A stretch of 36,563 nucleotides of DNA, taken from positions 1-36,563 of the forward strand of contig JAJFUG010000055.1 in NCBI GenBank assembly GCA_021372515.1. Reading direction: 5' to 3'. A program made the translations under genes and the position numbers. This DNA is from a bacterium. Lineage in GTDB: Bacteria; Gemmatimonadota; Glassbacteria; GWA2-58-10. The notes below the pieces were generated by a model, which saw nothing but the letters and a program-made list of their open reading frames with translations, had not been told where the DNA came from and did no database searches. Shown piece by piece: positions 7,496 to 31,643 of the stretch (within the stretch, counting starts at the first letter, position 1; every line of letters starts with the position of its first letter).

Positions 7496-7696
7496 AACAC
7501 TCTCCTGTGGTCCAGCCCGCTCACGCGCGGACAGGTGGGAATTTTCAGTCCTCGGCATACATAATATAAAAACCCGGCGCGCTTTATTAAAGGTTAATCC
7601 CGCGAGTCAATCCATGCTTCGGCCAAATCAGTTGCCCGTGGCGGGGGAAAGCGCTAAGTTTTGAGGAGCTCAAACACCGATTACGACGGAGGATGG

Positions 7697-8500
7697 ATGC
7701 CTGCGGGCAGCAAAATAACTTTTCCGCCCTGCCTGGAACTGGAACTGGGTGAAAAGGAGCGCGTGCTGTTTTTCAGCGACGCCCACCTGGACAGCGAAGC
7801 AACCCCCGAGGCGCGCGAACGCAGCGCCCGCGTGCTCGAATTCCTGGACTGGGCCGGGGACAATTGCGAGACCCTGGTGATCCTGGGCGACCTGTTCGAT
7901 TTCTATTTCGAGTACAGGAGCGTTTTCCCCTCGCGCTACCTTCGCGTGCTTTCCGCCCTGGACCGTCTGTCGGCCGGAGGCGTGCGCTGCCTGTATGTGG
8001 GGGGAAACCACGATTTCTGGCTGGGCGAGCTTTTCAGTCGCACGCTGGGCGTGACCCTGGTGCGGGACGGGCTCCTTCTGGAGCGGAAAGCCCCCACGCC
8101 GCAGCGTGTCCTGGCCACGCATGGGGATGGCCTCGGGCCTGGGGACACGGGCTATAAAATCCTGAAGAAACTCCTGCGCAACCCGTTCCTTATCTTCCTT
8201 TTCCGCCTGATCCACCCGGACTGGGGCTACGCCCTGGCCCGCCTGACCAGCCGCACCAGCCGCAAGTACACCAACCACCGTCAGCCCGCCCGCGTGGAGG
8301 CCTCGGCCCGCACCGGCCAGGCCCTGCTGGACTCCGGCCGCAACCTGAGCGCCGTGGTGCTGGCCCACACCCACCAGCCCGACTGCCGTCAGTTCGAAAA
8401 CGGCCTGTATTTCAACAGCGGGGACTGGTGCACGCATTTCAGCTACGTACGCTGGGATGAGCGGGGCCTGAGCCTGGAGAGTTTCACGGGCACGCGGTGA
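7697..8500 (+). CDS. LpxH-like UDP-2,3-diacylglucosamine pyrophosphatase family metallophosphoesterase
   Basis: Calcineurin-type metallophosphoesterase with the full set of metal motifs: SDAHLD (Asp28, His30), GDLFDF (Asp65), GGNHDFW (Asn104, His105), THGDG, and VLAHTHQP near the C-terminus. The segment after THGDG (GDTGYKILKKLLRNP, then FRLIHPDWG) matches the LpxH group, which cleaves UDP-2,3-diacylglucosamine to lipid X in lipid A synthesis at the inner-membrane surface. This is one reason to call the organism an outer-membrane bacterium. ATG at 7697 with GGAGG four bases upstream gives 267 residues; a TTG at 7661 would add 12. Other lipid A genes are not nearby, so a different phosphoesterase substrate cannot be excluded. 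Confidence 0.88.
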   Translation: MPAGSKITFPPCLELELGEKERVLFFSDAHLDSEATPEARERSARVLEFLDWAGDNCETLVILGDLFDFYFEYRSVFPSRYLRVLSALDRLSAGGVRCLYVGGNHDFWLGELFSRTLGVTLVRDGLLLERKAPTPQRVLATHGDGLGPGDTGYKILKKLLRNPFLIFLFRLIHPDWGYALARLTSRTSRKYTNHRQPARVEASARTGQALLDSGRNLSAVVLAHTHQPDCRQFENGLYFNSGDWCTHFSYVRWDERGLSLESFTGTR

Positions 8501-8684
8501 GGCCGGTCGGCCTGCCGGGGGGCCGGCGCCGCGTAAACGCGGGGCCGGCCGCGCGGGAAGGCCCGGGCGACGTGGCAAAGCCCGGCGCTCCAGCCGAACC
8601 CGACCTTTCCCGCAAACCTCAGTTCCCCCGCGCGGCCCGCCGGGCGCCTTGCGCCCCGCCGGCCCCCCGGCGGTCCTACCGGCC
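8501..8684. terminator. Stop-to-stop nested inverted repeat between convergent genes, likely bidirectional terminator
   Basis: The outer arms are 8501-8527 and 8658-8684, 27 bases each, pairing at 24 of 27 positions. The left arm starts on the base after the lpxH-like stop codon, and the right arm overlaps the stop codon of the DUF4091 gene. Inside lie a hairpin CCGCG-TAAA-CGCGG (8529-8542), an inner perfect 11-base stem (8547-8557 with 8627-8637), a hairpin GGGCGC-CTT-GCGCCC (8642-8656), and a small stem within the inner loop (8563-8568 with 8580-8585). Either transcript could fold it into a branched structure. There is no T tract, so a classic intrinsic terminator it is not; the role as transcription stop is inferred from position. 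Confidence 0.65.
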
Positions 8685-10943
8685 GAGAGCCCTCTGCATG
8701 GCCATGATCCCCTGCAGCAGCTCCTGACGCCACGCCTCGGCCAGGTACGGGTCCGGGCTGACCCGCAGCTGACGCATCACCCCGTCCCCATCCGGCGCGA
8801 TCTGGCTCATTATCCGTTCGAGACTCTGCACGGCTGAATCCGCAGCCTGCACAGCGGTCGGGTTCTGGCCGGCACGGCAGGCTGCGGCCAAGCTGCGAGC
8901 CAGGAGGACCAGGTGCAGGTCCTCGATACCCCGGCGGATGCCCTGGTACTCGGGCGAGGGGCAGAGTTCCTCGGCCTCCTGGCCCGGGTAGGCGGCGCAC
9001 CAGTCGCGCTGGGCGCCGTCCAGTTCATCGTACGGGTCACCGGTCACTGCCTGGTAGGCGAAATAGTAGATACCGCACGCGCCGGTCCGGGGAAGGAACC
9101 AGCCGGGGATCACCCGGTGGCAGACCGCATCCGCGCCCATGTCCGAGGAGCCGAAACAGGGCAGGTAAAAATACGGGGCGGCCTTGTTCTGGCGCACGAA
9201 ATCCAGGGTCTGTGGGCTCACGCTGCTGATCTGCATCACCACGGCATCCAGGTACTGTGACAGCTCCTGGATGGAGGAGGGCGAGTTGAGGTCGCAGAGG
9301 GTGCGGACACCGTTCATGCCGCGCAGGATGCCCAGGGTCAGCCGGGCCAGGGCCATACGTTCGGGTTCGTTGGACGGCTCGTCCACCGGGAAGAACAGAA
9401 GTTGCGGCCAGCCCCAGTTATGCGCCGTGTCGTCCATCATGCGCACCGCCCGGGCATAGAGGAGCTTGTCCTGCTCGCTCCATTTCCCGGCGCTCTCGGG
9501 GAGGTTCAGGCGCTTGGGAAGGTCGGCCACGTAGAACGGGGTAGGATGGTCGAACCCGCAGCGGCGCATCAGCATGAACAGCGTGTGAAGTTGGCGCACG
9601 CGGGCCAGGTCCAGGGCCAGGTAGTACTCGCCGGTGCGGGTCACGAACGCGCCGCCCAGGGATAGGGAGGTGAACCCGTGGGCCGCCATGTCGCGCAACT
9701 GGAGTTCCATCTGCTGGGGGTTGTCCAGCGGCGGGTAGTAGTAGAAACCGACCTTGGGAAGGGAATCCGGCCAGAGCGCGGGGACAGTGACCGGCAGCAC
9801 CTCGATCCGCAGCGGGACGCTCAGCGCGGCATGGCCGGGGGCCTTGAGCAGCACCGCGCTTTCGTAGACACCGGGGGCGGCGTTCTCCGGCACCGGGACA
9901 TCGATCCAGAAAAAGCGGGCCTCCCCCGCGGGCAGTGGTTTGAGACGCGGGCGCTCCAGGAGCCGGGCGCGCGGGCCGAACTCGCGGCTCCAGCTCCCCT
10001 CCAGGCGGGTGGCGGCGAAACGGGCCTGGTAGAGCCTGGGCCGGGTGTGGAGCTCGCCGTGCTCGCCGCTGAACGGACGGCCCAGGCTGATCTCCACCGA
10101 GGACAGGTCCTCCAAGGCCCGGACCCCGAAGGCGAACGGCGCCGTTGTGGCCCGCGGGACAGTTTCCTGGAACGCCGGACGGATGTCGTCCGGGCGGGGC
10201 AGCGAATAGGGCCAGGCATCCACCAGGCCCTTGCGCTCGAATACGATAAGCCCGGTTCCGCTCTCCACGGCGGACGGCTGGGGCGCGCCCTGCGGCTCGA
10301 TGTAACGCCCGGCGGTGAAACCATAGCGCTCGGCGGGGTTCCGGCCGAGCCAGCTCGAAAAGGTGGCCGCCTCACCCAGCCAGCCCTCGCCCTCGAGGAA
10401 CGCGGTCCGGCCCAGGCGGACAACACCCTGCGACGGCGCGCTGGTCAGCCGCAGGCGGGCTTTAGCTGCGCCAGCCGGGACTTTCAGGGAGCGGGTGTAC
10501 TCGGTCCAGCGGCGGCTGAGGCCCGCGCCGGGTTCTCTCTCCCGGGTGAGCGAGCTGAACAGTAGACTGTCGGCCAGAAGGCTGTCACTCTGATCGTACA
10601 GCTCAAGACGGGCCTCGAACATCTGCCCGCCAGCCCCGTCCCGCTCCAGGGCGAAACTGAACGCCACACTCGCCCCGGCCGAAACAGGCAGCGCCGGGCT
10701 GGAAAGGTTCAGCCGCGCGCCGCTGTCGGCGTAGAGCGCCAGACAGGGCTTTTCCACCCCCTGGTCCAGGTAGTTCTCCTCCAGGAGGCCGGAGGTGTCC
10801 AGGGTGTCCCAGAGCGCGTCACCCGCGCCGGTCCGCAGGCACCAGTGCGGGCCGGGCGCCTCCTCACCGCAACCGGAGGCGAGGCTGAGGAGAAAGATAA
10901 GGACTGAGGCAAAGGCTGGGCGCTGGAGCTGGGGTCGGATCAT
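8676..10943 (-). CDS. DUF4091 domain lipoprotein, putative glycan-active enzyme
   Basis: A 755-residue protein with a signal peptide ending in LASGC, so probably lipidated at Cys25. An N-terminal beta-sandwich region (about 35-200) is followed by further beta-rich domains and a TIM-barrel-like part beginning near LPKVGFYYYPPLDNPQ. The C-terminal region (IPGWFLPRTGACGIYYFAY, then PSPEYQGIRRGIEDLHLVLL) matches the DUF4091 pattern: a strand ending in the barrel, then a tryptophan/tyrosine-rich segment and the Gly-Ile-Glu-Asp helix. DUF4091 proteins are related to GH123-like glycoside hydrolases and occur in polysaccharide-use loci. A pair of acidic residues in FFPVDEPSNEPER could be catalytic; this is a guess. 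The substrate is unknown. Confidence 0.85.
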   Translation of the reverse strand: MIRPQLQRPAFASVLIFLLSLASGCGEEAPGPHWCLRTGAGDALWDTLDTSGLLEENYLDQGVEKPCLALYADSGARLNLSSPALPVSAGASVAFSFALERDGAGGQMFEARLELYDQSDSLLADSLLFSSLTREREPGAGLSRRWTEYTRSLKVPAGAAKARLRLTSAPSQGVVRLGRTAFLEGEGWLGEAATFSSWLGRNPAERYGFTAGRYIEPQGAPQPSAVESGTGLIVFERKGLVDAWPYSLPRPDDIRPAFQETVPRATTAPFAFGVRALEDLSSVEISLGRPFSGEHGELHTRPRLYQARFAATRLEGSWSREFGPRARLLERPRLKPLPAGEARFFWIDVPVPENAAPGVYESAVLLKAPGHAALSVPLRIEVLPVTVPALWPDSLPKVGFYYYPPLDNPQQMELQLRDMAAHGFTSLSLGGAFVTRTGEYYLALDLARVRQLHTLFMLMRRCGFDHPTPFYVADLPKRLNLPESAGKWSEQDKLLYARAVRMMDDTAHNWGWPQLLFFPVDEPSNEPERMALARLTLGILRGMNGVRTLCDLNSPSSIQELSQYLDAVVMQISSVSPQTLDFVRQNKAAPYFYLPCFGSSDMGADAVCHRVIPGWFLPRTGACGIYYFAYQAVTGDPYDELDGAQRDWCAAYPGQEAEELCPSPEYQGIRRGIEDLHLVLLARSLAAACRAGQNPTAVQAADSAVQSLERIMSQIAPDGDGVMRQLRVSPDPYLAEAWRQELLQGIMAMQRALGR

Positions 10944-31581: not shown

Positions 31582-31643
31582 GTAGGGGCAGGCCCCTGTG
31601 CCTGCCGTCTTGTATTCGGGCGGCCACAGGGGGCCGCCCCTAC
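31582..31643. repeat. REP-like doublet in inverted orientation
   Basis: The left unit starts GTAGGGGCAGGCCCCTGTG and the right unit, read on the other strand, starts GTAGGGGCGGCCCCCTGTG. Each unit can fold by itself (GGCAGG/CCTGCC on the left, GGGCGGCC/GGCCGCCC on the right), and where the two units differ inside the stem both sides change together. Such paired short palindromes are typical of REP/BIME-like elements. No REP-associated transposase is in the window. Confidence 0.75.

Follow-up and report, generated by a model that had tools for sequence, protein, structure and literature searches.

A REPIN-like family of dispersed palindromes lying behind stop codons in a GWA2-58-10 (Gemmatimonadota) genome and probably spread as a non-autonomous mobile element

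The described systems closest to the element reported here are the REPs and REPINs. According to Di Nocera et al. 2013 (PMC3733652), REPs between convergent genes lie at most 20 bp from both 3′ ends and unidirectional ones lie near the end of the upstream gene; REP spacers, 20-100 bp long, may have equal lengths where their sequences differ, and unlike hairpins can be combined as heterodimers. A REPIN study (PLoS Genet 2011, PMC3116915) reports this plan too, together with compensatory changes, and for the spacer it is length and hairpin capacity that matter. The element considered here lies in a 36,563-nt stretch of DNA that was analysed whole (the window; contig JAJFUG010000055.1, assembly GCA_021372515.1). 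We think it likely that this element is one copy of a small, new and lineage-restricted family of dispersed, REPIN-like palindromes that spread as a mobile non-autonomous element.

The gap that holds the element separates two convergent genes. On one side is a metallophosphoesterase gene (Pfam PF00149; 7661-8500, plus strand; stop codon TGA at 8498-8500) that the initial annotation had called lpxH, a name to which a match to NF003743 (E 4e-29) lends support, although the scores stay under the curated NCBIfam cut-offs (101 bits versus 134 for NF003743, and likewise for TIGR01854), and we refer to it as lpxH-like. The gene on the other side, a 755-aa open reading frame (8676-10943, minus strand; stop codon at 8676-8678), had been named DUF4091; this could not be confirmed, Pfam giving weak, sub-threshold GH123 N-terminal matches only. 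The initial annotation also described 27-base outer arms that start after one stop codon and overlap the other, enclosing nested stems and two side hairpins, and the folds bear this out. The left arm (8501-8527) directly follows the TGA codon and pairs at 24 of 27 positions with the right arm (8658-8684), which covers the convergent stop codon, and the resulting single folded unit, seen on both strands, fills the intergenic space. Within it, the core outer stem that is common to the copies is formed by 8517-8528 (GGGGGGCCGGCG) and 8657-8668 (CGCCGGCCCCCC), and the inner stem by 8543-8557 and 8627-8641; the left side hairpin (8529-8542; 5 bp, loop TAAA) and the right side hairpin (8642-8656; 6 bp, loop CTT) stand between these stems, and a centre of 69 nt (8558-8626), whose similarity between copies is weak or nil, lies innermost. 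All of these segments are given without strand.

The capacity of the element to fold as RNA of either gene, and as a cruciform in DNA, was likewise upheld: fold z-scores were -4.9 for the plus strand and -5.0 for the minus strand, with none of 200 dinucleotide shuffles equalling the real sequence in either case, and the DNA fold reached a z of -6.2 (0 of 200 shuffles equal). At 36 nt, 83% and 112 nt apart, the inverted repeat heads the list of 14 found in the window. The element is 82% G+C, and neither its T runs nor its A runs are longer than 3, in agreement with the earlier statement that it lacks a T tract; a hairpin with a T tract, the mark of an intrinsic U-tract terminator, is not present in the window copy, and a search of 7500-9800 gave no terminator-like site. 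The outermost part of the arms (8501-8516, pairing with 8669-8684, the latter overlapping the convergent stop codon) pairs strongly in the window copy only. Outside the core, 4 of 500 shuffles paired as well as the real sequence here, compared with 343, 263, 188 and 129 of 500 for the copies on C73, C111, C72 and C51, and 11 of 120 permutations of the flanks matched the real pairing. Because the extra pairing beats shuffled sequence in the window copy only, among the five copies tested, the long 27-base arms are a local feature of that copy, which could be either an older hairpin with the element in its loop or the product of later growth.

A search of the genome for the arms, as had been suggested, revealed five further copies at unrelated loci. 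The genome is a draft of 4.87 Mb in 222 contigs, in which the window element matched C73:75700-75852, C111:14393-14549 and C72:91345-91447, and another copy used as query matched C51:22356-22517. A sixth and more divergent copy, on C37 (L131:939-1016), was reached from a half-site match with one mismatch; ten such places were fetched and folded, and the other nine were not copies. The family thus has at least six members, and a few more copies may exist in this genome. All six share an outer stem, a left hairpin, an inner stem, a right hairpin and a closing stem, in a core of about 78-163 nt whose aligned ends read GGGGG(G)CCGGCG or GGGGGGCCGCGCCG. The stems are nearly all G-C, and there is no conserved single-stranded motif. 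When the first four copies were aligned, every one of the 66 invariant columns fell in the arms, and four of the six pairs of centres were at shuffle level, the remaining two standing at 19 and 23 of 1000; the centres are without clear homology, so that copying of the unit as a whole is at most indirectly supported.

Pairing is retained where the sequence has changed. The left hairpin is paired in all copies, with altered sequence on C51 and C37: on C51 it has 9 bp made of other bases, and the right hairpin is altered too and still paired, and the C37 copy has other bases, again paired, in both hairpins and in the inner portion of its outer stem. In the inner stem of C72, a C-G pair replaces a G-C pair. 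For the first five copies, fold z-scores ranged from -3.7 to -7.6 over 200 shuffles each, the real fold being equalled by one shuffle of 200 for C111 and by none of 200 for the remaining four. The structure was also found by a scan blind to sequence, which required a multi-branched fold of 70-215 nt whose closing stem had 9 or more perfect pairs and was run on 1,161,843 bases of the same genome, chosen so that every contig with a copy was included. Exactly the six copies took the top six places, with values from -0.92 to -0.67 kcal/mol/nt; real sequence next scored -0.605, and a cut-off of -0.65 kcal/mol/nt left 6 real matches and no shuffled one (best shuffled -0.649); at a looser cut-off of -0.55 there were 12 real and 4 shuffled matches. 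The other contigs of this sample yielded no additional copy. Because the six copies take the top ranks of the scan, with shuffled sequence below them, they constitute a structural class of their own.

Every copy lies behind at least one stop codon. The window and C111 copies are placed between convergent genes and the other four (C73, C72, C51 and C37) between genes of the same direction; none of the six is between divergent genes, a count that with n = 6 is not significant by itself. In five cases (the window, C73, C111, C51 and C37) a distance of about 6-36 nt separates the stop codon from the start of the core, and on C72 it is about 100 nt, with a hairpin and T tract in between. The C51 copy (L070 1642-2210) divides two small cysteine-containing ORFs whose similarity, judged by eye, suggests a tandem duplicate.

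Two of these junctions could be compared with relatives, which lack the element there. In four relatives of the same family, tblastn places lpxH-like orthologues (59-61% identical) side by side with orthologues of the convergent gene (48-54% identical), and the element is absent from all four, the gap measuring 11, 39, 60 and 185 nt, as against 175 nt here; a fifth family relative, G002, gave no lpxH match. The 185-nt gap, in G005 (L074), holds a different long hairpin, A+T-rich and flanked by A and T tracts, that looks like an ordinary bidirectional terminator. At the GH3-OsmC junction the element is again absent from four of four relatives, with gaps of 104, 120, 124 and 147 nt versus 237 here, and the fetched locus of G001 showed no OsmC match. 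These comparisons cover two of the six junctions (lpxH/convergent and GH3-OsmC); the LysE gene at the C111 site and the gene at the C72 site were each matched in one of five family relatives only. The direction of change, gain here as opposed to loss in the relatives, rests on the four of four relatives, without an outgroup tree.

Two readings had been put forward in the initial annotation: a mobile palindrome that settled at this site and a purpose-built convergent transcription block; a repeat-free junction in relatives was named there as one refuting outcome. The presence of the family elsewhere in the genome, together with the junctions that lack the element in relatives, argues for an inserted dispersed repeat rather than a structure specific to this junction. 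A junction-specific convergent block was rejected, since the same gene pair occurs without the repeat in all four relatives and convergent genes flank only two of the six copies, and it is the mobile palindrome that gains support from both lines of evidence.

Several other explanations share part of this evidence. The element might be a MITE derived from an ordinary DDE transposon, in which case GGGGGGCCGGC would serve as terminal inverted repeat and the side hairpins would be incidental; its strongly conserved ends, its variable interior and the relatives' junctions that lack it would allow this. We regard this as unlikely: no target duplication was apparent by eye in the flanks of five copies, BLAST of the copies against their own genome returned no longer element with these ends, and the side hairpins stay paired despite changes in sequence, something a plain inverted repeat would not require. 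Unlikely, too, is a T-less bidirectional terminator or stabiliser of transcript ends with arms that selection maintains site by site. Such a role would fit the position directly behind stop codons at most sites, the two copies between convergent genes, the high stability on both strands and the lack of a U-tract terminator at the lpxH junction, but all four relatives do without the element there, three of them with gaps of 11-60 nt; a separate hairpin and T-tract terminator stands between gene and element on C72; and a terminator would need no conserved arm sequence across unrelated genes.

That the copies are independent structured non-coding cloverleaf RNAs with promoters of their own is very unlikely. 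A four-way junction kept in six copies with paired changes is what such RNAs would display, but the centre is unconserved, the nearly all-G-C stems come with no conserved single-stranded motif, no promoter-like site was found near the element, and Rfam 15 covariance models gave no match in 8300-8900 up to E 1. As for chance, G+C-rich stretches generally fold well and this one is rich in G+C, yet no dinucleotide shuffle of the window copy equalled its fold and near-identical arms recur at unrelated loci; the existence of the other copies refutes a chance origin, to which we assign a negligible probability.

Each copy consists of two unlike half-sites in inverted orientation, whose computed fold is a four-way (cloverleaf) junction enclosing a spacer that varies in sequence, and we propose that the family spread as a non-autonomous, REPIN/MITE-like element. 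The folded single-stranded form is probably recognised by a transposase acting in trans, possibly one of the two Y1 transposases of the genome, and insertions just behind stop codons would be tolerated. In RNA of either strand the hairpins could then form a barrier at the 3′ end that protects against decay, perhaps accompanied by attenuation of a Rho-assisted or pausing type. Able to fold on either strand, the element would mark the transcript ends of both genes, and because it has no T tract, a decay barrier or weak attenuator is likelier than a terminator; this possible effect on transcript ends, which we infer from the fold, would be secondary. The family also cautions against taking gene-end structures of this kind for dedicated terminators. 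That the copies are few and their arms near-identical could reflect selection for function after an ancient spread. More tentatively, the family may represent a class of tagless mobile palindromes in which the four-way junction, rather than a GTAG or CGTC tag, is what the mobilising enzyme recognises, a possibility to which we give limited credence; were it true, the spacer would be free to change completely, and both side hairpins and the stems would be kept by recognition.

Searches for other hosts were consistent with a restricted distribution. BLAST of one copy against 60 relatives returned short matches (31-61 nt) in 6, and around these, where parts of the stretches were folded, the two halves of the element were never found together. 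One of the pieces, in another family of the phylum (G050:C33, L080 about 300-350), resembles the right half (GCCGGCCGGGCGCTTG...GCGCCCCCGCCGGCCCCC), with the left half absent. The exact right-half pattern had no match in genome_contigs (GTDB-based, 84,980 species), nor did the pattern shortened by one base in viral_contigs; of the six copies, four conform to this pattern, and copies like those on C51 or C37 would escape it. The compact C72 copy matched nothing among plasmids and phages. A covariance model, R1, was blank in the other 297 of 298 genomes of the phylum, which is weak evidence of absence because the model, a poor one, misses known copies in its own genome, where it recovered four of the five then known at E up to 10 and two at a stricter setting. 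A full-text search of open-licence papers gave no published description of the palindrome family, and the present set, matched by no described family in that search, adds a family of dispersed palindromes from the GWA2-58-10 lineage.

The genome has GTAG REPINs of its own. With up to 2 mismatches, the GTAG half-site has 126 matches (65 + 61), compared with 1 (0 + 1) for the control, and one REPIN of this type (GTAGGGGCAGGCCCCTGTG ... CACAGGGGGCCGCCCCTAC) lies in the window at 31582-31643. Only two matches to Y1 transposases were obtained, on C159 and C18. At G000:C159 (L100 1330-2180) a RAYT-like Y1 transposase gene is followed by a GTAG REPIN-like pair, and another such pair lies in frame within its coding sequence; the name RAYT for this gene is based on its Y1_Tnp match, its REPINs and the general features of the RAYT family. 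At G000:C18 (L099 1456-1896) there is an IS200-like TnpA (146 aa); the two hairpins close to it do not resemble the element. Neither locus has element-like ends. The idea that the element is a GTAG REPIN of the resident RAYT was rejected, the element being tagless and having other ends, and the element and the genome's GTAG REPINs with their RAYT are separate sets.

Compared with known systems, the element resembles MITEs in being short, non-coding, dispersed and lineage-restricted with terminal inverted repeats, and differs in that neither a target-site duplication nor a parent insertion sequence was found: no direct repeat of common length was apparent by eye in the flanks of five copies, whose boundaries are uncertain within G and C runs, and nucleotide searches of the draft genome gave short elements only, with no autonomous parent bearing the same ends. 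The TIR families of TIRYT transposases, as described in PMC3733652, likewise have partly self-complementary terminal repeats, some with initial G runs, that occur alone or as dimers, but the common motif published there, GGGGWSAS, is absent from the element. The CGTC-tagged REPs of the same paper are, like the present family, dispersed extragenic palindromes, often heterodimers, with no dedicated transposase known; no CGTC or GACG tag is present at the ends of the hairpin units in the six aligned copies.

REPINs (REP dimers of the GTAG superfamily) match the element in anatomy and placement. Both consist of two inverted, self-complementary half-sites around a spacer, form one large fold with heterodimers of unlike hairpins and compensatory changes, have conserved ends and a spacer that varies in sequence and often not in length, and lie within about 20 bp of the 3′ ends of ORFs, of unidirectional or convergent genes. 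Against this, each side hairpin of the element is bordered left and right by complementary stretches that are much longer than in REPINs, and there are six copies in place of tens to hundreds; none of the six aligned copies has an unpaired GTAG tag at the palindrome ends, and no RAYT flanked by the element's palindromes was found in its own genome. In this one genome a tagless set of six copies exists beside a large set of GTAG REPINs and its RAYT-like gene, and comparison of the two could separate the role of the tag from that of the folded junction.
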